64,000 nt of DNA from Isoetes taiwanensis (taxonomy: Eukaryota; Streptophyta; Lycopodiopsida; Isoetales; Isoetaceae), in NCBI GenBank assembly GCA_021234155.1, contig JAJEKV010000016.1, positions 19,357,616-19,421,615 on the forward strand, in the 5' to 3' direction. Numbering within the stretch: position 1 is the first letter of the stretch; each line of letters starts with the position of its first letter. Below are positions 8,691 through 37,646 of the stretch, piece after piece. A program made the translations under genes and the position numbers. Below the pieces are notes generated by a model. That model was not told the DNA's origin, did not search any database, and was given only the letters and a program-made list of their open reading frames with translations.

Positions 8691-9085
8691 CCTTGCATAG
8701 CTATGCTTGCACCCTTGCTATCTTTCACAACAGGTGATTCCTTCCCATTCACGCCATCCCAACCTAGCAAACTGCCATCGACCATATCTGCATCTAACTC
8801 GGGCTTCCTGGATCCAGTAGGCGCAGCTATAGAGGTCGTGACCACCTCTCCGACCTGAATTTCGTTGTTCGCTTCCATCGTTGCCACTCAGAGAAGTGTT
8901 CGAGAAGAACGAACCATCATCATGACAAGTCAATCAACAAAATTCAAAAGTAAAGCCATTTTAGCCAAACAAAAAACATGGGATTCATATATTGTTATCC
9001 AGTCTGTAGATGCCATCATATTTGCTTCAAATAAATACTCAAATTTCTCATTGTCAAATAGGTTGAAAGAATGAGATGAAACTTA
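8691..9085. other. Unassigned stretch, possible minus-strand LINE ORF1 start
   Basis: A minus-strand frame (8654-8887) starts MATMEANNEIQVG and is acidic and Ser/Thr/Gly rich, like the N-terminus of some LINE ORF1 proteins. It is too short to assign. Nothing else is recognised up to the copia LTR. Confidence 0.25.
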
Positions 9086-9698
9086 TGTTAGATGTAGCTT
9101 ATAAGGTCCAAGGCAAATTATTCAACAACTTTGCACTAGCAATTCAAAACCAGAACTCACAAGCAACTTTCTTTTTCAGCAAAATATATAACTTATACAA
9201 TAAATTCCAAATGCAATGGTCATTCAACCATTGAGCACAATATCCACCATTTAACTTTATTTCTAGTGTAACTGTAGCAATGCAATTACTCAAAGATGTT
9301 TGAACATTGAAATACTACACAAAAAGAACTTGAACACGATATGATCAAACAGATGTATTTGATCATTCCATAACTCCCCTTAGCTCCATTCGGCTCTGTC
9401 TATGCTTTGGTTATCCCTGCTCAAATTTTTCCTGTAAGTTTCGACGGTTATGCCTGAAATTTTCGGCCACATTTTACAGTTACTATTTAAACTTTTTCGG
9501 TTGGCTCCAAATATGGATCCACCTCATACCTTTTAAAATAGTATAATGAATATTTTTCACAGACCATTGTAAATACTTAAGTTACCCTTTCAATAACCTT
9601 ACGGTTAACTTAGAGCTAGCTATATTATACAGTATTTGTACATATGATCAACTGTATAAGTATATGCTTAGATTAAAATATGTGATGAAATTCCAACA
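9086..9698 (-). repeat. Copia 3' LTR
   Basis: 613 bases, beginning TGTTAGATGTAGC and ending TTCCAACA (TG...CA). About 385 bases match the right LTR at 23287-23670. Positions 9671-9698 give the uninterrupted version of the site into which Helitron 1 inserted in the right LTR. Confidence 0.88.
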
Positions 9699-9724
9699 TT
9701 CCTCCTTCATCACATAATTTAAAT

Positions 9725-10947
9725 TACCTTCAACCTGTCTCTGTGTTGTGCAAATTTACATTCTGTAAGGTTTTTGTAAAAATGTCTACAACTTGCTCTA
9801 CGGTATTCGCATAACACATTTGAATGTAATTCTTTCCAACTAAATCCCTAATGAAATGAATGTTTAGTTCAATATGTTTTGTCCTTTCATGATCAACAGG
9901 GTTTTTGACTATAGCTATACAGCTCTGATTATCTGTCCTCAGCTTGCTTATAATTTAACTCATCAAGTAATCTTCTTAACCAGATTACCTCTTTTGCAAG
10001 CAAGGAAGATGCTGCATATTCCGCCTCTGCAGTTGACATTGCTATTGCATTCTCCTTTCCCCTTCTCCAATTTACAACACCTCCACCTAGGAAAGCAACA
10101 TGCCCTGATGTTGATTTTCTGCAACTAAGGTCGCCTCCCATGTCAGCATCATTGAAAGCATATAATGTTAAGTCTGTTGAGTCATATGTAATGCTATGTT
10201 GCCGTGTTTTCTTTAGGTATCTTAATACCCTGTTCAGCTAACCCTTTGCTTGGGTTATGACATCTTCTACTTAGCACATTGATTATATAAGAAATATTTG
10301 GTCTGGTATTGTTAGACAAATAGAGTAGGCAACCAACAAAATCTCTATAAGGAATATGTTCCATGTCCCTTGTTTCTTCTTCTGATAATTTCTTTTCTTC
10401 TATTAACCTATGACCTGACACTACTGGTGTTGCAACAGGATTTGCGTCTTCTAGTTTGAAAATTTTACGCATATTTGCTATCTGTTTGCTCTGCTTCAAT
10501 TTCAGTGTTTTTTTTTTCTCCCTGTCTCTTACAACCTCGATCCCAAGAAACTGTTTTAGTTCACCTAAGTCTGTCAGTTGAAACCTTCCCTTAGCAATTC
10601 TTTGAAGTGATCCAAGCATTTTATATTATTTGCAAACATTATACAATCATCCACATAAAGTGCAATGATGCAAAAACTGTTCCCATCTTCAAATCTATAT
10701 AAAATTCCATCATTTTTTAATTTCTCAAAGCTTTGCTCTCCCAAAAATTGATCCATACACAAATACCATTCCCTTGGTGCATGTTTAAGACCATAGACTG
10801 CCATGTTAAGTTTCCAAATTTTGTTTTCACCTATAGTAAATCCTGGGGCTTGTCTCATGTACAGATCACCATCAAGTTTAGAAATCAGGAATATTGTCTT
10901 CACGTCCATGTGGTGTATCTCTAAGTTTAAGGCATTAGCAATACTGA
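9725..10947 (-). pseudogene. Copia reverse transcriptase (3' part) and RNase H
   Basis: Minus-strand frames give LSIANALNLEIHHMDVKT (start of the RT core), ALYVDDCIMFANN (YVDD-box of copia RT), LTDLGELKQFLGIEV, and then the RNase H part with CRKSTSGHVAFLGG and STAEAEYAA. Beyond 9929 the frame continues with DHERTKHIELNIHFIRD and VDIFTKTL, the usual end of copia pol. Frame changes occur near 10580 and 10190. The 5' part of the RT lies at 19874 onward, on the far side of the DNA transposon. Confidence 0.88.
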
Positions 10948-10951
10948 GTAA
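10948..10951 (+). repeat. Target-site duplication GTAA, left copy
   Basis: GTAA abuts the first base of the left terminal inverted repeat and matches GTAA at 19874-19877. On the minus strand, joining the flanks over one TTAC restores the copia codons for IRLLLSIA. Confidence 0.88.
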
Positions 10952-10972
10952 GGGTAGAAGCATGAAAGGGTG
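10952..10972 (+). repeat. Left terminal inverted repeat
   Basis: 21 bases starting GGGTAGAAGC and ending AAAGGGTG; exact reverse complement of 19853-19873. Just inside, at about 10999-11019, lies a short palindrome (TTACATTT-GGC-AAAATGTAA). Confidence 0.9.
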
Positions 10973-11333
10973 GGCAAAAAAAGGGACACTTTTATACATT
11001 TACATTTGGCAAAATGTAAAAAAATTCCCCTTGAGGTCTCATTTATTAGGGGGTACCTAATTTTCAAACCGGGTTGGGAAACTTTAATGCACTAATTTTC
11101 AAAAATTAAAAAAAAAAAAAAAGGACCTCCTTCTTGATTCTTTGATCCGCCCATTCCCAACCTCTTTGCTCCTGCCATAGCGGACCTTTGCAAGGTCGAT
11201 CATGGACCCTAAGCCCTCGATACTCTCCCATTATCACCTAGACCCGGGCGCTAGGGTTTAGGCTGCGAGGAGGGTGTGATTTTGTGCATTCATCGGTGAT
11301 TGATCAAGCCCTATTAGTAGCAGCAAAGAAGCA

Positions 11334-14300
11334 ATGAAGCGGCAAAGGTCGGATCAGTCGGTCCAGTCGCCAAGGGTTTGAAGCCCATGGCAACCCGAAG
11401 CCTAAGCCATCGAAAGCAAGCAGGAAACTAAAGACAACTCTGGAAAATCTTCATTGCAGCGAGTTGCTCAAGGTTAGCATTAGACACGACTTAGGACCTA
11501 CAATTTTGATTCGGTTTTTCCAGGTCTCCAAAGTGGTTCGTGATGTTTGGGGCTCAAACCACCAGCTGTTAGGGTTACCAAGATGCCGGGATCCAAGGGG
11601 TTTGGATGGCATTTTCTTAAGAAATATGAGCATGTATTCGGCAAGACTCGGAGATCAATAACCATCACATTCCATTGTACTTTGCAAGGGCCTTTGCACT
11701 TCATTACAAAGGCATACAAATTGACTGGAATGAGGTAAAGGAGCATGCTATTTCTGCTAAAAAAGAGCAAAAGGAGTCTGATGTTACACATGCAGGGACC
11801 GTAAAATCGTCCAATGTAAAAATATGCAAGGTAAATCGCCCGCAGCCCGGTTTAAATGCGGATGGATGGGTTGAAGAAATTGGTTGAGAGTAGACTTGTG
11901 GATGCTACTATCTTGATTAGCAGATTGAAGGAGTTGAAGGACAAGAGGAAGCTACTTGAATCCGAGATTTGCAGGCTAGAGAGTGAGAGAAGCACATTAA
12001 GTAGGGTTGTCCAAAAATCTGATGCACAGATAAACACTCAGCTTGCCAAAATTCTGACACTAAAGGCAGCAGGGCAGCCAATAGATTTGTAAATGGCATT
12101 GGCAAGTCACTTTGAAGAGGAAAAATCAAGTTTTATGGAGGAGAAGAAAAATTTAACAAAGCCAATCGAAGACATGACTTCTGAGTTGCAGACATTAGCC
12201 ACTGCCATCCATGAAATCAGCAAGGATTTGGAGATGAATGAAATTAGTGAGAGTAGGATAAAGAACATGATATTACATCTTGAAACATCAGATGTAATTA
12301 CCTTGCATCCCATCCTGTTCTTTTGGCGGATAGTAAGGCATCAAATCCTCGTGTGAAGAACACATCTTTGCTCTTGCAATGCATGCCTTGACATGTAGTA
12401 TTTTGGTGTTGCCATCATGTGGACATCCCCTCGCCTTCTTTGTCTCTCATACCCGTGTCTCTACTTCGAACCGGTGTGTTTTTTCATTGTCTTTGGCCTC
12501 AAGAACTTCGTGCAAATATGGGAATTTCTACTCAAGGTAATTACGTTCACTTGATTTCATTTTATAGTGTAGGAATACTTTTTTTGATATGCAAGTGATT
12601 ATCTTTAGATATGTATTTGTTTGGTAGAGTCTTGAATCGACATTTACCTTCTACATAGACTTAAGTTTTGTTGTTCTCGAGAATGAATGTAGTTCAAGGT
12701 GCTTGGATTTGGATACATACATTCTTTCTGTCATTTACATTTCTTTCATGTACATGCTTTCTTGCTTCACTTAAATTTACATCATGTACATGCTTTCTTG
12801 CATAACTTACAGACTGCCTCATGTAGATGCTTTCTTGCATGACATACATTTATTGACACTTTACATTCTTGATTCCTTGTTTGTTAGTTTTGATTACATT
12901 TACTTTTTGTTTTGCTTTGAAACAGGGGAGCATCAAGAAACCCGAACCTTTATAGCGGGTAATGTAAACATGTAGATGATTTGTAAACATGTAGAATTTT
13001 TTTAGATCCGAGTCTAGCTAACTAGCCATTGTCATATCTCGGTGTGAAGCCATTCCTTGAAGGAAGAACCTTGCTACCTGAATTCTCGGATGTTTGAACC
13101 TAAACCAACCAAGGATGATGCCATGTCCGTGGGACTCCTTCTACATCAGCATCACCTATTAAGGCATTCTCTCACAATCGGGAAAAGGCAGAATCAAAAA
13201 GTTTGTGGAGATGGCAATGGCCAGAATCAGTAAGTTCAAATTTAATTGAGTTGATATAAGCTTCAATATTATTTCAGGTTGCTAATTTGTAAGATGTGTG
13301 ATTGCAGGTGGAATTAGTCTTCAAGAGGAGATCCCAAATTTGGATGCCGAGTTGGCTTCCTTGACTCAGCAACAGGTTCCTATCAAAGGTGAGCCATTGT
13401 TGAGGTTTCTACAATAGGTGCGCCATTTAATGAATGTTCTTTTAACTTGTTTTCTGATAGTATAGGTATTTAGCTACTTAATTCTTTAGTTGTGTTTGTC
13501 TTACACTACCTATTCGAGCACTTCATATGTACTTGCTGGTCTTGAAGCTCAATATGTTTTCCATTTGCTGCCCGAAAAAAATGGCAGCAGACTTGCTTAG
13601 CTAGTTTTGGTTTTTAAAGCTCATCAAACAGTAACATTTGTTCATGAGGTGCATATTCTCTAACTGGTTATGGCAGATGAAGATAAGAAAGCACCAGCAG
13701 CTATAGAAACGATTATCGTGAAGGAGGAGGATGCTCCCCCAAATAACAAGCGGAAAACTCGAGCCAGAAAGGATGCACCAGCTAAGAGTGCAGCTAAGAA
13801 AAGGTATGCACTTCATCTTAACTCACACCATTTCTTCAACTCACACCATTTCTTGTAGGCAAAAATCTGTTGAAGACACAACATCTCTTGAAGATTCTAA
13901 ATCCGGTGAAGAATCTGATGTTGATGCAAGGTAATATTATGAAACATTTGTTTTTATGCACCTGCATGATACTTGACACTTCAATTTGATCCTTGTAGGA
14001 GCATGCGTGAGAAACTGTGTTCTTACACGCCTTTCGTGCCTTTCAAGGATAGCCCCCCTGATCCTCCCATGAAGGTGGTCGATATTGACCTTGAAGAACC
14101 ATGCACCCGGATCAAGATTGACAAGCGCCTTATTGAACTCGTATGGCGGTATGCACAAGGTGTTGTAGATGTAATTCTGATTTCATCTCCTATTCTTTGT
14201 GTATTTATAATGACGTATAATTATGACCTTATCTTCTTGTAGGTACCTGCATCATAATTTGCCATCGGAGTGGAAGAACAAGATTTTCTTTTATCCATCT

Positions 14301-15041
14301 TTTAACTTTCACTTGTTCAAGGAAGCTACAGCAAGTAAGAAAAAAACCGAGGCCTCAAGAAACATTGTAGATATCGTGAAAACAGGGAATGAAAGGGTTG
14401 GTTATGTCAAAATGCCAAAGATGTTCTTCTACCCGTGCTTGAGAATGAGCACTTTGTGTTGGCTATATTTGCCTTTTGCGAAGGGAATCCTGCGAGTTCT
14501 TAATTGCACCATCGATTCATATATTGAATAGTCACGAAAGCTTTTGCGACAAATGAGAAGGCAATTAGAGGGTATGCATTTCTATCTACTTTCTCCCATT
14601 CCTGTCTACTTAAATATTTACATTTCTACTTTTAAATGTGCATGTGCAGGCTTCATACACGATATTGACTCAATCAATGAGTCAAACCTCAAAAAGCGGT
14701 GTTGATTTTATTCAGAAATAATGTGAAGGGGCTTGAACATCTTGAAGTACCTCGGCAGCCCAATCATTCAATGCGGCTTGTATGTGATGGCTGCATGCAC
14801 AAATTTGTGAAACCTTGTTAATGAAAATAAGGAGTTGAAGGTAAGTGTCCATTCTCTTGCAAGCTTTTAGTTAACACCATTTTACATTTCTGTTTGCTTT
14901 AATGCACTATGCACGAAGTTTCTGGCCAAGGCTGGTTTTCACCGCGATTATGCGCTAGGTCGGCGAGCATGTGCGCAAGAAGCCCCCGCTAAACAAAGGT
15001 GTGAAGATGGAGAAGCCATTGATGTGTCGATTGGTAGATGA
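11334..15041 (+). pseudogene. Coiled-coil protein with C-terminal Ulp1-like (C48) cysteine peptidase
   Basis: Discontinuous exons on +. An early exon reads KLKTTLENLHCSELLK (to about 11473). One near 11650-11880 includes YFARAFALHYKGIQIDW. Then comes a coiled-coil region (about 11890-12290, heptad-like, Glu/Lys/Leu rich), a basic stretch NKRKTRARKDAPAKSAAKKR (13670-13800), and the peptidase. The peptidase has WKNKIFFYPSFNFHLF (14270-14320), the catalytic His in NEHFVLAIF (codon 14450-14452), a candidate Asp in NCTIDSYIE (14514-14516), and the catalytic Cys in CGLYVMAACTN (codon 14772-14774, shifted frame). The last exon ends in a stop at 15039-15041. Ulp1 peptidases cleave SUMO-like modifiers and are found in several plant DNA transposons. 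Introns have GT...AG borders, such as CTTGTAG before 14243. At least three frame shifts make it non-functional as it stands. The start at 11334 is a guess. Confidence 0.75.
12748..12850 (+). repeat. Three ~36-bp repeats in an intron of the Ulp1 gene
   Basis: Units starting at 12748, 12783 and 12819 share CATGTACATGCTTTCTTGC (CATGTAGATG in the third). They lie between the coiled-coil and basic regions, in apparent intron sequence. Confidence 0.65.
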
Positions 15042-17099
15042 ATCTAACCATTTGTTTATGAGTTTTGTGGATGAAATGTGCTTTTTCAGATTTGATCAAC
15101 ACTTGGTTTATGCTTCGATATCATAACCACGTATAAAAAATTCCGGATATTGGTAATACCTTGAATCGCCTAATGGAATCACTCTTGCATAAAAATCAGA
15201 CTTTGTTTTGGCCTAGTTGCCTTCAAAATTTCGGATGTACTTGGCGAGTGCCTCAACCAATTAATTTTGAAAAAATGACATAAGTTGTCCCATATGGCAT
15301 TATTCTAAAGCATGTATCCGGTTTACGCGATGTCAATTTATCCCAAGTGTTTTGTATGTCTTTCATTTCTCCCGTTCTTAAATTATCCTCATAAAAGTTC
15401 TACCACTTATTGACAACTTAAGCTCATATTAGATGAGTGCTTCAAGATGATGAATGTGAGATCATGATCTTACATGACTTGATCATTTGAGATGGGTTGG
15501 ATGAGTGCTCCAAGATGATGAATGTGAGGTCATGATCTTACATGACTTGATCATTTGAGATGGGTTTGATGATAGTGTATGCTTGATACATCCCATTTCT
15601 TTTCCGACTCACTAAGTCCCCAACACTTGACTTACGAGTGCGGTGACTTCGGACTCGGACTATGTACCTTCACATTCTTCTGCGACAACCTCTCGCACTT
15701 TCGGACTCCAACGTTTCATGGGGTCCATGGCGAGGGGAGGTGAAGGTACAAATTGACTTGATGGATACACTTTCATCCCCCTCGAAATGTTAGTGCAAGG
15801 TATTTCAGTTTTTTGATAAGTGCACACTTTTTTGCTTCCATCCCATCTTTGTGACTTCATGATCTGAGCCCATGGGATTGAGATGGACAAGTGCATTGAC
15901 AATTTTGTAATCTCGACCATGTACATGAGATATAGTTGTAAATTTTGACATATACATGAGATACTGATTGTAAATTTTGAAGTCGACCATGTCAAGATTT
16001 TGACATTGTGAACATGTACACTATTTTGACATTGTAACCACCCTATCTAAATATATAAAATCTCTATCTCCTTCTTATTGTCGGACACTTCATAGAACTA
16101 TCAAGCCTAGCATCCAAAGCATAAATTACTTTGTTGTATTGTCGAGCACAATTAGGAGGAGATGTTAATAAGTTGTATAAGTGGTCAAGATGTCAAACAT
16201 TGCACAAAAGTACTAGCACTTTGTGCACAAGGTGTTAACACTTTGTGCACAAGTGTTAAATAACTTGTATAACTGGCAAGGGAAAAAAAACTCGTGTCCC
16301 CTTTTTTTATTTTTACAAGGTCAATAATGTCTTGCCAAGGTTCAAGACCTTTGTGCAACTTGTGTCAAGATGTCAAACCTTGCACTTGTTGTCAAGATGT
16401 CAAACCTTGCACAAGTGTCTCCCATATAAGTCCCCATTCTAAAAAGGATACAATATAAGTGTCCCCCATTGTTTTTTGAAAGAGGCATCTTGAGCTATGT
16501 CGGTATAAGTTGTCTTTTGTAAGCCTGAGATCAAACAAGCAAATTCAAAACCACAACACTAGGCACTTCCAAAATGGCTCTTACCATATATACACTCCGC
16601 GAAATTTGAACCATTAACGTAAGGTAGCCATTAACCTCGAGTTTTCAAGTACAAGTACAAGTGTCTCAAGTACATGTACAAGTGTCTTGAACCTACCTGC
16701 TGCCAATGTATTCACTTTAATATTGAAAACAAGTGATCAGAATTGTTCTGCTGGCCAAACACATGACAATAATTATGTAGCCTGATGTACAAAAAGGTAA
16801 ACCTGATACAAGAACAGAAATTCACGTTACATCTACAATCTCGGCAGATTTCCTAATAGCATCTCGTACACATCGAGACAGGTTCATATGCATAAGCAAC
16901 ACCTTTTATCTTGTGCTTGATGGCTCCAATGCAGGCGAACCCCTATTACGAGACTTCGGGAGGGACAAAAACCTTCTTCTCTTTTAGTAACTTTTACTTC
17001 ATGGCGACTAGGGATCAGCTCAAGTAGTTGCTGTAATAACCTCATCACCTCTGAAAAATAAGTTTCCATAGTCATCCATGGTATCTACCTCCGGTACAT
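15042..17099. other. Non-coding middle of the DNA transposon, rich in short repeats
   Basis: Lies between the two converging genes. 15433-15571 is a ~69-bp tandem duplication (GATGAGTGCTTCAAGATGATG...). 16190-16420 repeats GTCAAGATGTCAAAC-TTGCAC and CTTTGTGCACAA several times, and 16650-16690 repeats AAGTACAAGTACAAGTGTCT. A weak minus-strand frame (16884-17075, LLQQLLELIPSRHEVKV) may be the last exon of the transposase. No other coding signal is recognised. Confidence 0.55.
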
Positions 17100-19573
17100 G
17101 TTTTACTTGATTGCATTGAAGGATATAATAAGGGACCCCCTCATGATTGTGCGGAGTCGTGAAGCATCCAAAATAATCACCAACTGCGGCGTCTCGTCAA
17201 TATTATCCTCGTCATTTGCCCATAAATCCTCAGCCTCATCAACATCTCCGGGATTGATCTTACTAATTGGCTCTAGTTTTCGCAACTCCCACCTACCACC
17301 CATCCTTTTTCCTTTGTTCCGCTTCAAGCCACAATTTAGAGATTGCCCCTTCCTCATCGTGTGTTCCCTTCCCATGTCCTGAACTAAAGAAATTCCACTG
17401 CATTCTTATCTTATCTTGAACATGGTATCTTGTCACATGATAGAATGCTCTTCTAGATTTAAACCGGCTGCACAACCATCGGACCAAACCAAATGGTATT
17501 TCAAATGGCCACCACCATTCTCTTGCAACCATTTGAGGTGCATCTTGAATGCATCTTGTCACAGTGGGTACCATGAGTTTTGTCGTCTGAAATAAATGAG
17601 TGCACACATTTTCTCAATCGCCATTTACCTTGAACATGGTGATATGAACCAGAATACTAATTTGTTCATTGTACCAATGCTGAGCTTGAATCTCATTGAA
17701 TGGCTTCAAAGTATAATTTTTCGAGAAAAATCAACAACTATAGCACAGATAAATCGCTGAAGTGTTCGTATGCATTCTTTGAACTGCTTGCTTTGCCAAT
17801 GTGCCACAAAATTGTGATATATAAACTTAGACATATGGTCGAACATGTTTGTCCAACATCTCCTTTGCAATTTGCCCTTCTTGTCAACTAACTTCACCTT
17901 GGGGAAGTTCCCTTCTTTGAAGGTTCATTAACATAGTTATAGACTTGCCAATCGGCCAGAATCCTCGATGCTTCCATCCTTCTCTCTCGACACAACTCAA
18001 TTAACTGTTTCCCACAAGCTGTCACATTTTGTTTCCATGCACGGGCTAGCTTGTGCCACTCCTCATCGGCGGCCCTCCGGGCATACCATAGCTCTCCAAA
18101 GCGTGCTCACATTATCATAATTCTGCTTCTTAGCTTGGCAAATCCAGGCATTAACCACGGAAGCACACACATTGCAATTGCAAGTACAATTCTCGTTGGA
18201 ATTTTGACCTCATCGTATTGAAAGCCTTCTTATATAAATCTGCACGCTCATGCTTCACACAACAGCGGTATTCCTCTCCTTTAGCTTTAGGTATGCAAGG
18301 AGGTTTTAAGTATTCGAATTGCCTGATGCCAATTTTGACTTTTGGATGCTGATCAACAAAGATTTGGTATAATTCAGCCTGCAAAAGTACACTGTCAGAA
18401 TCTTACAAAATATTAGAATGTACATTCTATATGTTTTTAATGTATCTTCCACATTCTTACATCTAAGTACTTTCTTCCTCAAAACCCCACATCCTTACAT
18501 AATAGCTACTTTATGAAAAGCATTCACATATTTTTCTTGACATCTACTACATTCCTCACAAGTAGCTTCCTTGAGTTTTTATTTTCTTACATCTATAGCA
18601 CATCTCTACAGTTAGCTTCAAGTATACCTTCAAGTTGGATTCAATGTAAAGCATGTCAATATAACTTCTACAAGAAAAACTGAATAACATTTCTTGATGC
18701 ATGATGTGGAACATGCTTGTACAGAAAAGACTACTGTCACCTGCAAAAAATGTAGAAAACATCTACATACATTCCTAGCTAAAGTACATTTGATGTTCAG
18801 ATCGAAAATTCAAAAAACTATGTGACTCCTCCATGACCCTAAAATACTAGCATGTACCTGTGTAATGTCGATGTACTGAATTGGTTCAGTCCTCTTCTTC
18901 ATGACATCTCTTACCTTTGGTGATACTTTTGTATTATCTAACCAGAACTGAACAACTCTGTCCTTCATAGCCTGATCTATGGCATTTTTTCTTGGCTTTC
19001 GTCCTGCTAATGCCCACAGATTTGCTCCACACAGTGACATTTTTTCCTCCTTTGCTGGCGCTAGCTTCATAGTTCTAGGATGCAATTTGAGGATTTTGGT
19101 GCCCGTGTGGTCTGCTGCTGTAATACTCCTTCCTTTCCAACTACCATGGAAAGAACACTGTGTTTGGCAGCAAGCTTGTCATTGCTATTAGCACGTTTCA
19201 CTTCTTGGAGGCCATCCTTAAGGTTTTCAAATAAATCTCTTTTCACAATAGCCTCTTTAGGCCTTCCAACAACGAGGGCTAAATAAAAGTCCAATCTACT
19301 ATCCTGGAGCAATTTTCCAGCAAAAGTTTTTTTTCGCTTTTGGATTCAATCTAGAAACTTGATTTAGTATGTGATTCATGGAATCATTCACCCTTCTTCT
19401 AATCTGTTTTTGTCCCATATCATCCTCTCTCTTGCATCTTTTTGATGAAGATTGGTTGTCCCCGGAAGAAATGCATGTAGAGTCCTCCTCAATAGCAAAA
19501 TTCGAATCGATGGTAAGTCCTCCTCAAGAACAAGATCCGAATCTGTTGTTCTTTGGTGAATTTGATTCGCCAT
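17100..19573 (-). pseudogene. Putative RNase H-like transposase (SDGCA / GHGKG family)
   Basis: Fragments in order on the minus strand. MANQIHQRTTDSD (start 19573). A basic region with KLAPAKEEKMSLCGANLWAL and KDRVVQFWLDNTKVSPKV (18900-19080). After an intron, AELYQIFVDQHPKVKIGIRQFEYLKP (18380-18300) with a following C-C-x3-H. A Cys-rich zone reading CNVCAS and later C...CPEGRR (about 18180-18070). Then VVDFSR (Asp codon 17730-17732), WSDGCAA and FKSRRAFYHV (Asp codon 17478-17480), and WNFFSSGHGKGTHD (17356-17400). The three acidic positions resemble a DDE/D triad. I know proteins with the pattern FF-SGHGKG-D-G-GA-K from many plant and animal genomes but not under a settled name. Several frame breaks and at least one stop make this copy defective. 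Confidence 0.68.
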
Positions 19574-19852
19574 AGCTTCATACATTCCAAGATCGATCAA
19601 ACAGGCATAGAAATGGGGATCCTATTCTTGGTTCCAATGAGAAAGGGGTTTCAATCCGGTAGCTTCAATCCTGTGGAGGGAGTTCAAAACTCAAAACGTG
19701 CCCCCAAATTCGTGGGTTGCCAAAATAATTGCAAAGAATCTCACGTGGACCACAAGCATTAATGATAGGCAGCCCATGTAAAATTCAAATTTTACCTTAA
19801 ATTCACTTTAAGCTAGTGTATTTTTTTACATCAATTTGCAAGAAATACAAGA

Positions 19853-19873
19853 CACCCTTTCATGCTTCTACCC
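19853..19873 (-). repeat. Right terminal inverted repeat
   Basis: 21 bases ending GCTTCTACCC, the exact reverse complement of 10952-10972, followed directly by GTAA at 19874-19877, the right copy of the target duplication. Confidence 0.9.
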
Positions 19874-22800
19874 GTAACAATCTAATGCTTGTTAGTTTTA
19901 CAATAGGAGAATATGTTTCATCATAATTTATTCCCTTCTTTTATGTATACCCTTGTGCTATCAACCTGGCCTTGCACTTCTTGCTGCCATCTGCATATTC
20001 TTTTATTCTGTAAATCCATTTACTTCCTATAATGTTGTGGCCAGTTGGTTCTGCAACTTCTTCATAAGTTTGAGCTTGTTTAAAGGAATCCAATTCCTCC
20101 TACATGGCATGCATCCACTTTTTACTTTCTGTTGTTGCTAAGGCCTGTTCAAAAGAAGTAGGAACCATTATATCATCCATGATAGCTAAAATTTGATCAA
20201 TGTCTTGTTGATCAAATTCATTCCCTGGATTCTCCAATCTCCTACTTCTTTCCTTTTTAGTTCTTCCATAGACATCATTATTTATTCTTGCTTCTTCAAG
20301 CAACCTTTCAGCTTGTCCTTTTTTAATGACCAGCAATTTCAATGGGGTTCAACTCATGATGCCCTGCTAGAGTGTCATCAATATTGCTGATTATTTTCAT
20401 TGAGTCATTGTCACTTGTCCCATCCACTTCATCATCTAAATCCATATTTATATCTTGCTGTTTTGTAGAATTTTCTATGCTTTCTTGAGGCTCCTTGTTC
20501 ATGTCATCATTCAATTCTGTCTTTATACAAAGTTCCTTCATTAAAGACCACATCTCGGCTAATAATAATCTCTCTTATTTTTGGCACAAATATTCTATAT
20601 CCGGGTGGAAGCATGTTAGGGTGTCCCTTAAAAAGTATTATTTAGTGACTAAAAAAGTACCTAAAAAGGTACCCAGGACTGGGTACTGGGTACTTGTGTA
20701 ATATGTCAATAAAAGGTACATTTTAGAACTTTTATATATATTTTGGGCTTAGATAGCATTATATTTATCTTAACTTTTAAAATTAACATGTCCTTCACTT
20801 TTATTTTGGACTTTTGTACTAGTTTTAATGAAAAGAAAAATGAGAAAGTACCCAGTTCTGAAGTACCTAGTGTATGTACTTTTGCAGGTTCCAAAAGTGG
20901 TACACCTTAACATGCTTTTACCCATCTTTTGGTTTGCTCATCATAACCTACTAGATAGCCAACTTTCCCTTTGCAACCTAATTTCTTTCTTAGCTCATCA
21001 GGTATGTGAAAATTACTTTGCAACCATAACTTTTGAACATACTAAAGCTTAAATTATTTTTGGTATTAGATCAGAGAAGAACAGGCATATTACCTTTCGA
21101 ACTTGAAGATGGTAATTTGTTTTGAATCAAAGTTGTAGTTTGCAATGTTTCTTCACATAAGAAATTTGGTAAACCACTTCCTTTGATCATTGATCTAACA
21201 GCATTCATAAGTGTTCTGTTTTTCCTTTCTGCTACACCATTTTGCTGAGGGCTATACTTGCATGTTAATTATCTTTTTATGCCATTAGATATGCAAAAAA
21301 ACTTGAATTCATTTGACTAATACTCTCCTCCTCTGTCTGACCTGATGCATTTCAATTTTGCTCCTATTTCTCTTTCCATTTCAAGTACATATTGTTTAAA
21401 AGCATTCAAGGCTTGAGATTTTCGAGTTAAACAATAACATTTTCTATTTTCGAGTTAAACAATAGCATTTTCATTTTATACTATAATCATCTATGAAGGT
21501 AATAAAGTACCTTTTGGTTGTTCTTCCTCTTACATTAAGAGGTCCACATAAATCAGTATGTACTAATTCCAATACACTACTGGATCTGGTTTTTTATTTT
21601 GGAAAAGGAAATCTGGTAATTTTCCCAAGCAAGCAACCTTCACATATAAACTTATTTGCCTTTGGATCTTTGCATTCAATCCATCCCTTCTTAGCCAAAA
21701 ACTTTAAATTGTTGTGGTGAGTATGTGCTAATCTGCTGTGCCAAAGTTCAAAATCTGTTACTGTTACAGAATTTATAGAGTCATGAACCATGTTGTCTAA
21801 CTGAAAAAGATTTCCAACCCTTCTTGCAAGAAACTAGTTCGGTAAACGATTTTACAAGCATCAGAGTCAAAATTGACTCTATATCCTAGGTCTACAAGTT
21901 GACTAACAGAAATTAAATTCTTAACAATGGTTGGCACACAAAGGATATTCTCAATGTCTATGACATTTCTACGCAAATCAAGCAGCTGCAACAATCCTTT
22001 GCCTTCAATCTTTTGCAGTGCACCATTTCCTACTTGTATATTTCTCGAGTAAGTTCCCTCCAACATTTTTAAGTAGATCAGTAGTATGAACTATCGATCT
22101 TTCAGCTTTACTATCAACTACAAGGACCCGAGACTTATTAGTTTCAATTTTATCACCAAGTGCAAAAGTAAGAGGTACCTCATCTTCATCCTCAACTTCA
22201 GATTTTGCAATATCCTCTTGCTCCCTTGTGATATATGCTTCTGTAGACCTGCCACCTCATCCCCTTGAAGTAGAATTTCTTGCTCCTCTTGTTGTTACAT
22301 CTCTTCCTTTTCCGAGTGGGGCATTTAGATGCCAAATGTCATCTCTCTCCACAAGTATAGCAATTGAACTCCTTGTTCAATTTTGGACAATTGTTCTTAA
22401 AGTGTCCATGTTCATGATAATAAAAGCAAGTTCTATTATCAATCTTATTTTTTCCCTTTTTTCCAGCATAAAGAATTTCGTGGATTCATCATCATCTTCT
22501 CTCATCACTTTCTTTTGTTCTATTTCTGTTCTTAGGACTTCTTCTGCTTCTTCCCTAGACTTATCCACATTTCTAATGAACAAGAAAAGGTGTTCATTTT
22601 TCGCAAGAGATTGGATTTGATATCTATCAGATAGGTTGACTTCTGCACCACTCAAGTATGCTATGATATTGTCAAACTCGTTATAAAAATCAGATAAATC
22701 ATTATCATCTTTTAACTTGAGTTTTCTTAATTCCTTTTTAAGCAAATCAATCTGAGAGGATGCCTTTTCCAGAAAAAGGGTCGTGGTCCTTTTTTCCAGC

Positions 22801-23265
22801 TCAATCCGAGCTCCCTATGAATAGAACTAGGCCTTTTGCTGGATCCAAGTGTTTTAACAGAAATATCCACATTTCTCTAGCTGTCATATTTCTCAACTTC
22901 AATCTAATTGTAGGACTAACCTTTGAGGTGATTATCCCTTGTGCCTCCTTCTGCCTTGCAAACAAACTCCTGACAGTACCACCACTTACAATGATTGTTG
23001 TAGATGTTCCTTTTGAAGTGGCACCTTCAGTACCAATTTCTGCAACATTAGAATTAGTATTTGCTGGACCCCCTGCATCAGACCTTACATTAGTACTTAT
23101 TGCAGTACTACCTTGTGCCTCATGATCACTCAATGGGTCAACAAGCTCCCAGAGATCTTCTACTTCTAGGATATGCTTAATAGCATCTTTCCACACCTAA
23201 AATTCAGATCCACTTTTATACACCTCAATAGAACTTAACAATCCTGCACCAAATCTGGTAGACAT
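19874..23265 (-). pseudogene. Copia gag, protease, integrase and 5' part of RT
   Basis: From right to left on the minus strand: gag begins near 23265 (MSTRFGAGLLSS) with an early stop, then VWKDAIKHILEVEDLWELVDP. A gag core lies at 22745-22377 with the zinc-knuckle-like CFYYHEHGHFKNNC, where one Cys is lost. A protease remnant reads VLVVDSKAE where DSGA is expected. GAG-pre-integrase reads LWHSRLAHTHHNNLKFL with ICEGCLLGK (21791-21594). The integrase (about 21550-20560) is full of stops. The connection region and RT start read ALATTESKKWMHAM and DETYSPIVKLTSIRLL up to 19874, where the DNA transposon begins. Confidence 0.83.
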
Positions 23266-23272
23266 GTTGTAT

Positions 23273-23286
23273 GGATCTGATACCAA
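23273..23286 (-). other. Copia primer-binding site
   Basis: The minus strand reads TTGGTATCAGATCC directly after the LTR terminal CA, the usual tRNA-Met primer site of plant copia elements with one change. Confidence 0.8.
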
Positions 23287-23670
23287 TGTTAGATGTAGCT
23301 TATAGAGTCCAAGGCAACTTATTCAACAGCTTTGCATTAGCAATTCAAAACTAGAACTCACAAGCAACTTTCTTCTTCAACAAAATATATAACATGCAAT
23401 AAATTCCAAATGCAATGGTCATTCAACCATTGAGCACAATATCCACCATTTTACTTTATTTCTAGTGTAACTGCAGCAATGCAATTATTCAAAGGTGTTT
23501 GAACATTGAAATACTACACAAAAAGAACTTGAACTCGATATGATCAAACAGATGTATGCGATCATTCCATAACTCCCATGAGCTCCATTCGGCTCTGTCA
23601 ACAACTAGGATCCATACTATACAGTATCTATACATATGATCAACTGTACAATCATATGCTTAGATTAAAA
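23287..23670 (-). repeat. Copia 5' LTR, main part
   Basis: Starts TGTTAGATGTAGC, matches 9086-9678, and ends at GATTAAAA where Helitron 1 begins. The missing last bases (TATGTAATGAATTCCAACT) lie beyond the Helitron at 26812-26830. Confidence 0.88.
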
Positions 23671-24289
23671 TCCTATATTATAATGTTATTGTGTAAGTGT
23701 TGGACCCAGCCCTAATTTGGGCGGCCCAGATTTGATGAAATCAATGGAGGAGATGATACCACGTCAGATTTTTTTTTTTTTTGCTAGGGTTTAGCGAGGG
23801 CGGCAGTAGCACCTTCGAGCTGCTAGCTCCTATCTTCTGGAACAACTATCGAAGGAAAACTACCGAAGCTATATTCCTTTAATTCTTGATGCCAAGATCT
23901 TGACATCTTTGAACCTTTCGAAACTTCGAGAGATAAGGTAAGGCTTATAAAAAAAGGCCCTCTTTAGCATGACTTCGGCCAAATCCAGATTATTTCAGGC
24001 CATTTCTAGCCTGCCATCCCGATGAGGTCTTTTTGGCATCGCTAGAGTGCTTTATAAGTAATCACAGAATTTGGTGATGGCGGGGAAAAATTGCTTTCAT
24101 GGCAACATAGAGGTAAAAGGTGATATGTCAGCGATATTACGCTAGGTAGTTTTGATCCATTAATAACATCCATTGCTTTTGTTTTGCAGGTACAGCATAG
24201 AAGCTCCTGCTGCACACAATAAAAAAACTTCCCTACAGAGCAGGTTTGCAGGTTTGTCGCAACATGGACTTCCATATAAATTGTTTGTT

Positions 24290-25009
24290 TCATGCTAGAG
24301 CCTTTAACGTTCTATATAATAAAATTATGGCTTTCTTTTCCCTCGTGATCGAATTTGGTCCAAACCTATTTGTTGTCTTTGCCCGATTATTCATAGAAGC
24401 AACACTCTTTCCAAAGGGTTTTCTCAAGATCCGAGCAGGTTTGAATCGGATGCTTTGGAGATGATCTGTAAGACTTTGTATAACCAATGGAGTTTTTTTT
24501 GCACTTGCATATGGATCAGAGAGTGATCTCTTAAGTCTGGGGTTATGGCATCTAGCAAATACGCCTAGAACTTTTGTGAAGGCGTCTAGGCTTTTTAACT
24601 GTGGCACATGGTTTCCTATAAGATGCCAATGTGGATGTTGAAGTGCCAATGTGGATGCACTTGACAACAGTGGTCTGAATAACTTTAAAAACCATGTGTA
24701 GCTTGCTCTGCGATTGATTAGGCATAGAAAATCGTGGATATTGAAGAAAAGAGGTGGGCCATATTTGGGTAATAATGCAGATATCATTTGTTTATACTTC
24801 ATTCTTTCGCTGGTGCTTCTTTCTATTGAGCTAAGCATAGAGCAGCAAAAGCAGATGCATTTTCTTTGTACTCCTTCATAAGACGGTCGGGTTAAGATTT
24901 GCTTTGCTTTGTTCATATAGTTAGCATAGTTTTGAATTTTAAAATGTCTATCTATGCCTTTTTCCATGCAGTTCGATGCTTGCATAAAAAAGCCTTGAAA
25001 ACTAAGCAC
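24290..25009 (-). CDS. Open frame carried by Helitron 1, unknown protein
   Basis: 239 codons beginning MLSFQGFFMQASNCMEKG. The first about 180 residues are identical in Helitron 2 (33643-34266). Visible features are a Lys/Arg-rich early part with a short Cys cluster (RKCICFCCSML), a basic-hydrophobic middle and a Ser/Arg-rich end. I recognise no family. It could be a captured gene fragment or a chance frame. Conservation between two copies in one locus is weak evidence for function because the copies are recent. Confidence 0.3.
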   Translation of the reverse strand: MLSFQGFFMQASNCMEKGIDRHFKIQNYANYMNKAKQILTRPSYEGVQRKCICFCCSMLSSIERSTSERMKYKQMISALLPKYGPPLFFNIHDFLCLINRRASYTWFLKLFRPLLSSASTLALQHPHWHLIGNHVPQLKSLDAFTKVLGVFARCHNPRLKRSLSDPYASAKKTPLVIQSLTDHLQSIRFKPARILRKPFGKSVASMNNRAKTTNRFGPNSITREKKAIILLYRTLKALA

Positions 25010-26291
25010 GCATCTCTTGAAAACTAAGTTTACAACATCATTGTCTAGGTGAATTGTAGAAATATTTTGCCATCATATGTTCTGCCCTGAAATCTCGCCA
25101 ATACAATGTAGTTGTCGCCTTTCTGTGCAAGTCAATAAGGAGCTTTGTGCAATGAGCGAATTTAATATTTATTCTACGCTATTGAAGACGAGTGGATGAA
25201 AATGTCTATTTACAAGGCCATCAAGATGGCGGGATGGAAATAGACGAACATAATTGAATATCTATTTGCTGAGGGCTCGAGGATAGCGGGATGGAATAGG
25301 GACATAATAGGACTTCCGCGGTATCGAGGATGGCAAGATGGAATGGGATATGATAGAACTAACACTCCTATGCTGGTAAGATGCCTTTCTTGATGTTATA
25401 TTTTGAACCTTTGTAGATTTGATGGTCCTCTTCTTCTCTCAGCGATGGGGTTTTATGTACCACACACGCACAACAAATTCCAAAGAAGTTCAAAGCAACT
25501 TGGACAGCTTTGTACATTAAAAAATCTGGAAAAACATGATTTAGAAGGTGTTGCGGTGATAAATTGCCGCAGGCATATCTTTACGGTAACTAAGTGCCTT
25601 TCAATATTCAATTCGTGGCACCGAAAAAGATTTGCATTTCTTAAAGATCATGACGCCGGATATCCATTTTTGGAAGACCACTCGATGTAAGTGTTTATCC
25701 ATTTTTGATCCTACGTAAAAGATATCTATTAGAAGACATGTTCCAACATTTGAATAGAAAAGAGTACAAATATACATTAATACACTACAAATATACTACG
25801 GGGATTATCATTATCAATAACAACTAACGACAAATTAATCCAAACATTCTATCTCGATATTGAATTGTGCACATGAGCGATAGTTAACCTTTAACGTCCT
25901 CCTAAAATTCATCATCCACGTTTGAGCTTAATACTTCTTTACAAAAAGGTATGGTACTACAAATATACTACAGGGATTATCATTATCAATAACAACTAAC
26001 AAAGAAATTAATCCAAACATTCTATCGATATTGAATTGCGCACATGAGCGATAAACCTTCAACGTCCTCCTAAAATTCATCATCCACGTTTGAGCTTAAT
26101 ACTTCTTTACAAAAAGGTATAGTACTGAAGCTAAAAGTGCAACATACATACCAATTGCAGCAGGTCTTTCAAAATGACAACCACAAACAATCTGAACAAC
26201 AACTCATAATAAGCGAACATTTTTATCCAACATTCTATTATTCTAAACTAGAAGTCTATATACTTCCATTTGAGCTTCCATAAGTTACATC

Positions 26292-26372
26292 AACCCAAAT
26301 CAACAAATGTGGTGCAACAACCCAAATCAACAAATGTGGTGCAACAACCCAAATCAACAAATGTGGTGCAAC
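26292..26372 (+). repeat. 27-bp unit, three copies in Helitron 1 (two in Helitron 2)
   Basis: Unit AACCCAAATCAACAAATG... starts at 26292, 26319 and 26346. Helitron 2 has two copies at 35548 and 35575. The extra unit accounts for nearly all of the 26-bp length difference between the Helitrons. Confidence 0.85.
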
Positions 26373-26945
26373 GCATGCTCATGTTTCCGATGCTGATAAT
26401 ATTGTGGCATCATTGACATGTTCCAACTTTTACCCTAATTTGGATGGTGAGGATGACCTCTCGAATCGAGAGCCTATAGTTCTACAAAACAAAAAGGGGA
26501 GGCACAAAAGGCGCTTGGTAAAAAAAGCACATCTATGTTTCCTCTTTGGGCGAAAGGCACATCCTTTAAAACTTTGCCTCTTTGGACGTGGTCTTTAGGG
26601 GCCCTCTTATGCTATATAACACTCATTTATGACAAGATTGAAGAAGACGAGCGACTGGAGACCGGAGAAGAGCACTTTCTCTCAGAAATATCGATGCATC
26701 ACTATGTAACATTAAGAAGTGAGGTTTCTTTTAAGCGTTTTTTCATTGTGGCCCAAAAAATTTACAGGCTCCTCTCAACTTATGCCCAGCAACGCTGGGC
26801 ACCATTACTAGTATGTAATGAATTCCAACTATTTGTATGGGTATGGAGAGGATTCAAGCGTAGACTCAGTTCCCATCTAAGATGTAAGAAAATCTGCTAA
26901 CATCTCTCCCTCTCCCATGGGCAATCTATGGACGTAAAAGGTTTT

Positions 26946-27060
26946 ATTCTATTCTATTCTATTCTATTCTATTCTATTCTATTCTATTCTATTCTATTCT
27001 ATTCTATTCTATTCTATTCTATTCTATTCTATTCTATTCTATTCTATTCTATTCTATTCT
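26946..27060 (+). repeat. (ATTCT)23 microsatellite
   Basis: Twenty-three uninterrupted ATTCT units (115 bases) starting 115 bases past the copia right end. Very AT-rich pentanucleotide arrays of this kind unpair easily. No gene is adjacent. Confidence 0.95.
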
Positions 27061-27948
27061 TAAACATAAGGTATTCTTCAAGGACTACAAACACATCTCG
27101 ACAACTTGGCCTTCCAGTTGTGAGCTTTGCTTCCAAAAACTTATATATTCTTGGGTTTATTCTGGTCAACTGAACCTTACCTCTAGGTAATACGTTATAT
27201 ACAATGTATCTGCTTCCCAATACCTTATATGCATGCCCTTGATTATCATGCTCACCCTCGCAGACCCCGTACATAATTCCTGTCCTTGAACCCGACATGA
27301 AAGATTCGTAGTGTTATGGCTTGATTTGTATATCGTTATCATGTAAGGCGCATCGTTATTAGTTGGCCTTGAAACCCCTCCCCGTTTTCATGTAACTGTG
27401 GCCCTGTTAGTTTGGTTTCTTTTGCTTATGTCTACATCCACTGAATTGACACGATTGTCCTCTCCACTTTGTCTATCTACTTTTCTCACATACTTATATG
27501 CTTAAAATTCACCTCTCCTAAAATCTTCCTATGTTCATGTGGATAATATTTTATACAAAATTTTATTACAAAAAAAAAAAAATCAAAAATTTGGTGCCTG
27601 CCAAAGGCAGGGTCACCTTCTACCTAGCTTGCCGATTTTTTAGCACTTTGAGTGCCGATATCAGATTGCTGAGTCATTCCAAAATAGAGATCATTTCAAG
27701 GTGGGCTTAGCTGGGGCAGACATTGGCACAGACCGAGCAGGGGTAGTCCTTGATGCAGATCGATTCAGGGCTGGCAGAAATTCCTCCTTCTTCTCTCCCT
27801 TTTCTTCCCATTTTTTGGATGATTCCCCTTCCTTTTTTATTTTTTTGGCCCCCCTGGTAAGAAGTACCCTGCATATATAATCAATTTGGTTCTTTTTCAC
27901 AGCAATTTACATATACCTTTGCATATAATCACCCACTAGGAGTAGACG
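27061..27948. other. Unassigned stretch
   Basis: A minus-strand frame (27044-27298) resembles a retrotransposon protein scrap (LTRINPRIYKFLEAKL) but cannot be assigned. The remainder is AT-rich with no recognised feature. Confidence 0.3.
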
Positions 27949-32800: not shown

Positions 32801-32922
32801 AAAGCCAACATAGAATTACACAAATTGGTGGTTTATAAAATAGTAAACCCAATGCTCTAGAACATATTATCGGTCCATTTCGTTCAAATTTAAGCCCAGC
32901 TTAAATCAACTCTATGGACTAA
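29833..32922. other. Interior of LTR element B, left part: no gene recognised
   Basis: AT-rich, without convincing frames. A second copy of the LTR-edge pattern occurs at 30528-30583 (CTGTAACA, then CTCCCCCTCCTTAG and TTGGCCTCAAGGTC), resembling 29825-29872. This hints at a nested or duplicated LTR/polypurine junction. Confidence 0.45.
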
Positions 32923-35900
32923 TCCTATATTATAATGTTATTGTGTGTGTTGGACCCAGCCCTAATTTGGGCGGCCCAGATTTGATGAAATCAATGGAGG
33001 AGATGATACCACGTCAGATTTTTTTTTTTTTTTTGCTAGGGTTTAGCGAGGGCGGCAGTAGCACCTTCGAGCTGCTAGCTCCTATCTTCTGGAACAACTA
33101 TCGAAGGAAAACTATCGAAGCTATAGGTTTGCTTCCTTTAATTCTTCGCCAAGATCTTCGACATCTTTGGAACTGCTCAAACTTCGTAGATAAGGTAAGG
33201 CTTATAAAAAACGGCCCTCTTTAGCATGACTTCGGCCAAATCCAGATTATTTCAGGCCATTTCTAGCCTGCCATCCCGATGAGGTCTTTTTGGCATCGCT
33301 AGAGTGCTTTATAAGTAATCACAGAGCTGGTGATGGCAGGAAAAATTGCTTTCATGGCAACATAGAGGTAAAAAGGTGATATGTCACTGATATTCTGCTA
33401 GGTAGTTTTGATCCCTTAATAACATCCATTGCTTTTGTTTTGCAGGTACAGCATAGAAGCTCCTGCTGCACACAATAAAAAAACTTCCCTACAGAGCAGG
33501 TTTGCAGGTTTGTCGCAACATGGACTTCCATATAAATTGTTTGTTTTCATGCTAGAGCCTTTAACGTTCTATATAATAAAATTATGGCTTTCTTTTCCCT
33601 CGCATCGAATTTGGTCCAAACTGCCTATTTGTTGCTGCCAGATTATTCATAGAAGCAACACTCTTTCCAAAGGTTTTTCTCAAGATCTGAACAGGTTTGA
33701 ATCCAGATGCTTTGGAGATGATCTGTAAGACTTTGTATAACCAATGGAGTTTTTTTTGCACTTGCATATGGATCAGAGAGTGATCTCTTAAGTCTGGGGT
33801 TATGGCATCTAGCAAATACGCCTAGAACTTTTGTGAAGGCGTCTAGGCTTTTTAACTGTGGCACATGGTTTCCTATAAGATGCCAATGTGGATGTTGAAG
33901 TGCCAATGTGGATGCACTTGACAACAGTGGTCTGAATAACTTTAAAAACCATGTGTAGCTTGCTCTGCGATTGATTAGGCATAGAAAATCGTGGATATTG
34001 AAGAAAAGAGGTGGGCCATATTTGGGTAATAATGCAGATATCATTTGTTTATACTTCATTCTTTCGCTGGTGCTTCTTTCTATTGAGCTAAGCATAGAGC
34101 AGCAAAAGCAGATGCATTTTCTTTGTACTCCTTCATAAGACGGTCGGGTTAAGATTTGCTTTGCTTTGTTCATATAGTTAGCATAGTTTTGAATTTTAAA
34201 ATGTCTATCTATGCCTTTTTCCATGCAGTTCGATGCTTGCATAAAAAAGCCTTGAAAACTAAGCACGCATCTCTTGAAAACTAAGTTTACAACATCATTG
34301 TCTAGGTGAATTGTAGAAATATTTTGCCATCATATGTTCTGCCCTGAAATCTCAGTTAATACAATGTAGTTGCTGCTCTGTGCAAGTCAATAAGGAGCTT
34401 TGTGCAATGAGCCGAATTTAATATTTATTTACAGGCTATTGAAGACGAGTGGATGGAAATGTCTATTTACAAGGCTACTGAAGATGGCAGGATGGAAATA
34501 GACGAACATAATTGAATATCTATTTACAGGGCTACTGAGGATAGCAGGATGGAATAGGGACATAATAGGACTTCACAGGGTATCGAGGATGGCAAGATGG
34601 AATGGGATATGATAGAACTAACACTCCTATGCTGGTAAGATGCCTTTCTTGATGTTATATTTTGAACCTTTGTAGATTTGATGGTCCTCTTCTTCTCTGC
34701 AGTAGGGTTTTATGTACCACACCTGCACAACAAATTCACAGCAAGTTCAAAGCAACTTGGACAGCTTTGTACATTAAAAAAATCTGGAAAAAACATGATT
34801 TAGAAGGTGTTGCAGTGATAAATTGCCGCAGGCATATACTGTGTAACTAAGTGCCTTTCCATATTCAATTCGTGGCACCAGAAAAGATTTGCATTTCTTA
34901 AAAGATCATGACGCCAGATATCCATTTTTGGAAGACCACTCTGATGTAAGTGTTTATCCATTTTTTGATCCTACAGAAAGATATCTATTAGAAGACATGT
35001 TCCAACATTTGAATAGAAAAGAGTACAAATATACATTAATACACTACAAATATACTACAGGATTATCATTATCAATAACAACTAACAGCAAATTAATCCA
35101 AACATTCTATCTGATATTGAATTGTGCACATGAGCAGTAGTTAACCTTCAACGTCCTCCTAAAATTCATCATCCACGTTTGAGCTTAATACTTCTTTACA
35201 AAAAGGTATGGTACTACAAATATACTACAGGATTATCATTATCAATAACAACTAACAGCAAATTAATCCAAACATTCTATCTGATATTGAATTGCGCACA
35301 TGAGCAGTAAACCTTCAACGTCCTCCTAAAATTCATCATCCACGTTTGAGCTTAATACTTCTTTACAAAAAGGTATAGTACTGAAGCTAAAAGTGCAACA
35401 TACATACCAATTGCAGCAGGTCTTTCAAAATGACAACCACAAACAATCTGAACAACAACTCATAATAAGCGAACATTTTTATCCAACATTCTATTATTCT
35501 AAACTAGAAGTCTATATACTTCCATTTGAGCTTCCATAAGTTACATCAACCCAAATCAACAAATGTGGTGCAACAACCCAAATCAACAAATGTGGTGCAA
35601 CGCATGCTCATGTTTCCGATGCTGATAATATTGTGGCATCATTGACATGTTCCAACTTTTACCCTAATTTGGATGGTGAGGATGACCTCTCGAATTGAGA
35701 GCCTATAGTTCTACAAAACAAAAAGGGGAGGCACAAAAGGCGCTTGGTAAAAAAAGCACATCTATGTTTCCTCTTTGGGCGAAAGGCACATCCTTTAAAA
35801 CTTTGCCTCTTTGGACGTGGTCTTTAGGGGCCCTCTTATGCTATATAACACTCATTTATGACAAGATTGAAGAAGACGAGCGACTGGAGACCGGAGAAGA

Positions 35901-36037
35901 GCACTTTCTCTCAGAAATATCGATGCATCACTATGTAACATTAAGAAGTGAGGTTTCTTTTAAGCGTTTTTTCATTGTGGCCCAAAAAATTTACAGGCTC
36001 TCAACTTATGCCCAGCAACGCTGGGCACAATTACTAG
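32923..36037 (+). mobile_element. Helitron 2 (non-autonomous, 3115 bp)
   Basis: Same family as Helitron 1: begins TCCTATATTATAATG, ends ATTACTAG, hairpin TGCCCAGC-AAC-GCTGGGCA at 36009-36027, flanked by A (32922) and T (36038). About 630 bases (24468-25096 against the region near 33720-34348) appear identical between the copies, while other parts differ in clusters. The matching minus-strand frame here is 33643-34266 (207 codons). Confidence 0.9.
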
Positions 36038-37646
36038 TATTATATACATTGTATGTTTTCAACTTGTAAAGCATATTAACATGCTACCTTATGTTCTTTT
36101 CAGGAAGAACCATGAGTAGTCTCATAACAAAATCTCTACGACCTATGTCGTGGTTACATAACCTATTCCATTTCTATGGAATAAAGCATCAACTTGTACA
36201 TCAATAGAGTGCCCATACACTCTTTTTACATGCTTTACCTAACTGAAAATAATACCAACAATTACTTTCTTTGACGCCACAACCCTTATTTGATTGCATG
36301 AATTCATCAAGTAATCAACCTAGGCTTAGACCGAAGTCTGGTCCAATTCGCACAATAGTGCACCTAGTGCAACACACCAGAACCTTCCAATTTTGACTCC
36401 CAGAGTTGATTGATTGTTTTGCAAAAAGGAAGGAACTATAGACAAATCAAAGGTCTATCTTGTCCGATCCCCAAGGCAAAATCCTGGTGAGGTCAGACGC
36501 AAGAATGTGCACAAAACCTTTGTGATAATAACTAAAATGATTACACATTCTTAAGTACCTTCAATGGACTTTTTTTTTTTGGCTCAAATGACCAACTCAT
36601 CCATCCCTTAACATCCCGGATGTTAAGTTAGGACCGAGTAACAATATGGCTGGTTTCAATTGCCCAGATATATATCTATATGGGATTATTGCCATCAAGG
36701 ATTCTACCACGTCCATAACTGTTCAAGACTCCCAGGGTCCTAATGGAAGCTCTGCTTCCAAAACACAATATTTAAATTGCGAAGTCCTAACATGTAGGAA
36801 CCAGCATGAAATTCACCTCAACAATTCCTAATTATTGTGAACTTCCAGCACGGACCCTAGGTCGAGCTCTATTAACTCCTCGAGTATATAATAACATAGT
36901 CGTCACCAACTCCTTACAAAAATTTGGTTAAGAGCTAACAAAGTTGGACGCAGTTCGTCTACCTCCCACCACTGAGCCTCGGGCTCCCCACGACGCAACT
37001 GCTTAGCATCATTAAAGTGCCAAAGGTAATTGGTCCACTTTCAAAGTGTACACGTAGCCAGCAAACCCAGTTGCAGTTTTGCAACACCCCGTGCTGCAGG
37101 CAAGGATCCCAGATCCTTTAGAGTAATAGCTTGGCTAATAATGGATAATAGTTAGCTAAGTTAATAATATTAACCTTAGGAACTATTAAAGTTATAAAAG
37201 GGTGGAATTAGAAACCCATTATCAGCCAGCAAGCTTCAACGTACTTGGATTCCGGCCTCTTTTTGGACGATCGATGCTCCTCGACCGCTTCACCAAATGC
37301 CCAAGGAGTCTTCTTTGCGAAGCTCGAAGCAAACAGAGCCTTCTGAGAAAACTGCAAAACGGCACCTCTTTTTCTTAGCTGCAAATCTGGGTTGCACTAA
37401 AGACTCTGCAGTAGCTTCCTGATTGCTTCTCAGGTCTCCAAGAAGTTACCTGGCAATTCTCAGGCTAAACTGAGCTTGTTTCATGAATTGCAGATGCACA
37501 AGCCCCCTTCTGGCTTGCAAGCGTAACTTGTTAAAGAGAACCCCGGCAACAACTCCAGTAAGTCTGAGGAATGATTCTCAGGCCAAAACACTGAGAACTA
37601 TGGATGCTCAGAGATCCTTCAACACAATCTGGCTCTGATACCAAAT
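36038..37646. other. Interior of LTR element B, right part: no gene recognised
   Basis: No coding region recognised. It ends in the primer-binding site complement GGCTCTGATACCAAAT at 37631-37646. Confidence 0.5.

Follow-up and report, generated by a model that had tools for sequence, protein, structure and literature searches.

A complete, coding-decayed DNA transposon with 4-bp target duplications in Isoetes taiwanensis and its probable placement in Sola

A 64,000-nt stretch of Isoetes taiwanensis DNA (the window; positions below are window positions unless a locus is named) contains a complete DNA transposon of 8,922 bp at 10952-19873, whose terminal inverted repeats (TIRs) are identical at 21 of 21 positions. 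This window copy is a complete but coding-decayed cut-and-paste DNA transposon. Its transposase has three near-invariant aspartates in its relatives, and we consider it almost certain that the element is a transposon with a cut-and-paste mechanism of the three-aspartate (DDD) kind. On its described features we further place it in a plant lineage of the named superfamily Sola, a reading to which we assign a probability of about 0.65. Here, we describe the ends and genomic copies of this family, its two convergent genes, and the evidence that bears on its affiliation.

Ends, insertion site and genomic copies

The left TIR occupies 10952..10972 on the plus strand and the right TIR 19853..19873 on the minus strand, and they are flanked by copies of the target duplication, GTAA, at 10948..10951 and 19874..19877. 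A TIR pattern allowing up to 3 mismatches has three matches in the window, the third at 20603, and none in 100 shuffles. When the flanks are joined with one GTAA removed, an uninterrupted minus-strand copia reading is obtained through LTSIRLLLSIANALNLEIHHMDVKT; further upstream, the same reading is interrupted by two stops that belong to the copia itself. These results bear out a first-pass annotation of this DNA, which had claimed perfect 21-bp TIRs with GTAA on both sides and a copia reverse transcriptase coding sequence that is restored upon removal of the element and one GTAA. Four other copies that share the ends of the window copy are 92-93% identical to it over 8.5-8.8 kb. The pairing of repeats and duplication could in principle be due to chance or have arisen when two elements recombined, and matching flanks are indeed missing in 4 of the 21 copies described below. 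Set against this are the perfect ends, unmatched in the shuffles, the four similar copies that share them, and the restored copia frame, which refutes such an origin for the window copy; we regard it as exceedingly improbable.

The genome searched for further copies comprised 1,658,258,908 bases in 1,110 contigs. A genome-wide TIR search, which the first-pass annotation had called for, yielded 1,849 transposon ends (906 + 943) at up to 2 mismatches, whereas a reversed control pattern yielded 0. From about 100 of these 1,849 end places, 24 convergent pairs of perfect ends were picked by eye; 20 were taken as copies and 4, with ends more than 20 kb apart, were left out. An exact 4-bp duplication flanks 17 of the 21 TIR-bounded copies (the window copy and these 20) and is never longer. 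The remaining four (L108, L111, L113 and L135) have no flush duplication of any length from 1 to 12 bp. The comparison of flanks thus reproduces the 4-bp duplication of the window in most other copies, and shifting the boundaries by 1-3 bp produced no duplication match in any of the 21 copies. The 17 duplications represent 16 different sequences with 65% A+T and no fixed pattern, and none is TTAA.

The 20 other copies are 8.9-17.1 kb long. Group A consists of the window copy, L106, L109, L135 and L137, which are 90-93% identical, and group B of the 16 other copies, which are 81-94% identical, with L139 and L113 the most distant. By blastn at E 1e-20, L106 shares 1.0-1.8 kb at 71-76% identity with 13 of the 16 group B copies, and neither the window copy nor L137 shares a stretch with any of the 16. 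A further insert, with an apparent LINE-type endonuclease and reverse transcriptase as judged by eye from open reading frames (ORFs), is present at L137-L138 (G000:C402:62620-79840).

The transposase, its relatives and the convergent gene

The transposase gene lies on the minus strand and is broken in the window by several frameshifts. Exon 1 (18858..19585), read in pieces with frameshifts and with an uncertain start, ends at a GT donor. It is followed by a predicted 479-bp intron (18379..18857; donor CAG/GTACATG, acceptor TTTTGCAG/GCTGAA), which was read from the sequence and has a similar layout in L142, and by exon 2 (16825..18378), itself carrying several frameshifts, whose end was placed by eye against L146. 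Exon 2 comprises zinc-type cysteines, an RNase-H-like core and a C-terminal domain. The codons of the candidate catalytic aspartates, all on the minus strand, are at 17730..17732 (in VVDFS), 17478..17480 (in WSDG) and 17356..17358 (in GHGKGTHD); the first two residues are aspartate in 60 of 60 relatives and the third in 59 of 60, with one gap.

Open readings occur elsewhere in the genome. At least 137 stretches, many of them stop-free, match a 294-aa query from the transposase core at 53-100% identity, a lower bound since 133 of 10,175 candidates were scored. Stop-free exon-2 readings of 540-629 aa are present at eight loci, L141-L148, and are 55-98% identical to that of L142. L142 and L143 provide the fullest transposase readings, with an open exon-1 reading also in L142; the start of exon 2 is missing in L144, L145 and L141, a short internal stretch is missing in L146, and the frame shifts near the start of the exon-2 reading in L147 and near its end in L148. 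At all five of these loci where the upstream end was read, it differs from the window's by 3-5 mismatches. A far end bearing the same four bases lies 25,993 bp away in L142 (TCGG) and 21,955 bp away in L143 (TTCG). These far ends were found with looser end-plus-duplication patterns, each being one of 8 genome places, and were not found with stricter ones; the calculated probability of a right-strand match within 30 kb downstream by chance is about 7e-5. Both divergent elements with a located far end, 22-26 kb in length, carry the 4-bp duplication.

With an E limit of 1, a transposase profile search recovered 144 proteins, of which the best 120 were all at E 1.1e-36 or better; the set includes proteins from a sea slug, from Klebsormidium, and from a liverwort and yew. 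In an AlphaFold model of one relative, the three near-invariant aspartates occupy the DDE positions of an RNase-H-like fold, and the weak Foldseek matches include NurA, Argonaute, p300, RNase HI and RuvC. The transposase is by this prediction a DDE/D-fold enzyme with a DDD triad. Pfam contained no model above cut-off for the transposase (E up to 10) or for 10 relatives (E up to 0.1), the best sub-threshold row on the relatives being DUF6597 on P0004 (E=2.4e-4), and no Pfam transposase model matched the window transposase pieces or their stitched reading. NCBIfam, a library that covers bacteria and archaea, gave no match on 5 relatives, and the PDB gave no sequence match. None of 1,041 candidates proved to be a relative of the stitched window reading at E 0.001, and none of 26 a relative of its core at E 10. 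A literature text search on the transposase motifs, a weak type of search judged by title and the start of the abstract, returned no relevant paper.

The GHGKG pattern had 0 matches in viral contigs, and a looser version matched 70 stretches there, and a genome contig collection yielded 26; 95 of the 96 loci from these pattern searches were judged by eye, from ORF context, to be chance matches. The exception, L078 (CAITIQ010000176.1, 1244-1723), is on a contig labelled as a metagenome-assembled genome and carries WSYGAPGHGKGVWDGLGG. That contig is filed under a delta-proteobacterium, its GHGKGVWDGLGG protein resembles distant eukaryotic transposases, and it is perhaps a eukaryotic contaminant. 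A2 gave 71 pattern stretches and 0 relatives against viral contigs.

Convergent with the transposase gene, as the first-pass annotation had it for a Ulp1 peptidase gene and a GHGKG-type putative transposase, is a region with the order coiled coil, RING-like cysteine cluster and Ulp1-like domain. In the window, the remains of the coiled-coil gene are at 11544..12353 (plus strand; recognised by eye as fragments that lie in different frames) and those of the Ulp1-like (Peptidase_C48) gene at 13664..14818 (plus strand), with a His box, LENEHFVL, at 14438-14461 and a Cys box, QCGLYVM, at 14769-14789. Other copies contain longer open coiled-coil pieces followed by the RING-like cluster, on which RING models score below Pfam cut-offs. 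The peptidase assignment is supported by a consensus of 4 group A copies with hand-joined frames, which scores 33.8 bits with PF02902 (E=4e-8), above the model's curated cut-off of 20.7 bits; the consensus work left out L139 and L135, and a group B composite fell under the same cut-off (13.5 bits, E=0.067). The match to yeast Ulp1 in the PDB is weak (E=0.047), and by tblastn the region is recognisable in groups A and B.

Affiliation and proposed mechanism

Sola elements have 4-bp duplications, a DDD transposase and variable TIRs of 11-1124 bp, and are mostly 2-9 kb long, with some above 15 kb (PMC10741241). They are known in moss (PMC10741241), and Sola1 of Physcomitrella and two Capsicum species are listed (PMC9033089). 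Four features lead us to favor Sola: 17 of 21 copies have 4-bp duplications, the relatives have a DDD triad at the DDE positions of the predicted fold, the window element, at 8.9 kb with 21-bp TIRs, lies inside the described ranges, and its host, like Physcomitrella, is a seed-free plant. The Isoetes element differs from Sola in its second, Ulp1-like gene. It differs also from amoebal Sola2, whose 4-bp duplications are AT-rich (AWWT and the like; PMC3627910), whereas those here are mixed, a preference that may vary by lineage. Sola is unmentioned in the main texts of two Isoetes papers (PMC8566536, PMC10541799), and PMC2997013 and PMC10004981 yielded nothing on it.

The first-pass annotation had excluded hAT, CACTA, Harbinger, Mutator and Tc1/mariner and had suggested an undescribed or a poorly described superfamily. 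Duplication length upholds the exclusions, and none of the Pfam transposase models matched; an undescribed superfamily is not established, and Sola had been overlooked. Duplications are 8 bp in hAT, 2-3 bp in CACTA and 3 bp in PIF-Harbinger elements. Those of Mutator are 7-12 bp and those of Tc1/mariner TA (PMC10741241). The Ulp1-bearing Mutator-like elements to which PMC2836005 refers resemble the Isoetes family as plant transposons carrying this peptidase, but have 7-12-bp duplications (PMC10741241) and another transposase.

Two alternatives to Sola share the 4-bp duplication. According to one, DDD transposases with a GHGKG..D motif, 4-bp duplications and GGGT ends, found in plants, algae and animals, constitute an unnamed superfamily apart from Sola1-3. 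Such a superfamily would probably occur in protists as well, be missing from protein-family libraries, and have apparently expanded recently in Isoetes together with a Ulp1/RING-like accessory gene. The empty Pfam, PDB and literature results favor it, as do the similarly empty result from the bacterial and archaeal NCBIfam and the steep significance of the best 120 of the 144 proteins. The literature search was a weak one, however, and the Sola features tested fit. Moreover, we know of no Pfam model for Sola, so that absent Pfam matches are expected under Sola too, and we hold a superfamily of its own to be a tentative reading, unlikely but deserving of consideration. The other alternative is a different named superfamily. 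Ginger, Academ, Chapaev, piggyBac and Kolobok also generate 4-bp duplications, a likeness shared by Ginger1. Ginger1 transposases, in addition, carry Ulp1 domains: their integrase is of the Gypsy type and bears Ulp1 or OTU at its C-terminus (PMC2836005). In the Isoetes element, in contrast, Ulp1 is a separate convergent gene instead of being fused to the C-terminus of the transposase, no rve or other integrase or piggyBac-type Pfam model matched in the transposase and relative scans, and 0 of 17 duplications are TTAA, the target of piggyBac and Kolobok. This evidence covers Ginger, piggyBac and Kolobok, and a placement in any of the five groups appears improbable.

As a member of Sola or otherwise, the element would be mobilised by a transposase with an RNase-H-like DDD core that binds the 21-bp ends and cuts the element out, and joining to the target with a 4-bp stagger would create the 4-bp duplication. 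The Ulp1-type gene, similar to SUMO proteases, may tune the control that host SUMO or ubiquitin exerts over the transposase or over repair, and short derivatives such as that at 20603-20923 may be mobilised in trans.

The copies described here define a high-copy lycophyte family whose ends are exact, whose stagger is 4 bp and in which open transposase readings occur. Sola is seemingly uncommon in flowering plants (PMC10741241), so the Isoetes family, if it is Sola, would be a strong plant example. Its transposase family spans plants to a mollusc, and since no Pfam or NCBIfam model scored above cut-off on the scanned members, its members may go into annotations as hypothetical protein. Trans-mobilisation and SUMO control of transposition could be studied through the short derivative and the Ulp1 gene.

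The host copia element and its surroundings

The transposon resides in a minus-strand copia element at 9085..23671, with long terminal repeat blocks at 9085-9400/23286-23599 and 9622-9679/23614-23671. The longer block is identical at 296 of 316 positions, and the gap between the two blocks on the left exceeds that on the right by about 207 bp. The same copia element contains a second insertion, a 321-bp non-autonomous element at 20603..20923, bounded by matches to the transposon-end pattern at 20603-20623 and 20903-20923 (related ends GGGTGGAAGCATGTTAGGGTG and GGGTAAAAGCATGTTAAGGTG). It is flanked by ATCC (20599..20602) on the left and ATCT (20924-20927) on the right, an imperfect 4-bp duplication in which 3 of 4 bases match. 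The copia frame is maintained when the element is taken out with 1, 4 or 7 bp, so frame alone cannot fix the duplication length, and the one-mismatch match of the flanks points to 4 bp.

Elsewhere in the window, a degenerate transposon-end match, GAGTAGAAACATGTGAGGTTG, at 61217-61237, with no partner seen, may be a chance match or a relic. A 3.1-kb unit is present in two copies in direct orientation (23669-26814 and 32921-36040) that are 95% identical, a tandem run of TATTC extends over about 26945-27061, and tandem units spaced 45 bp apart form an array at about 47573-47756.
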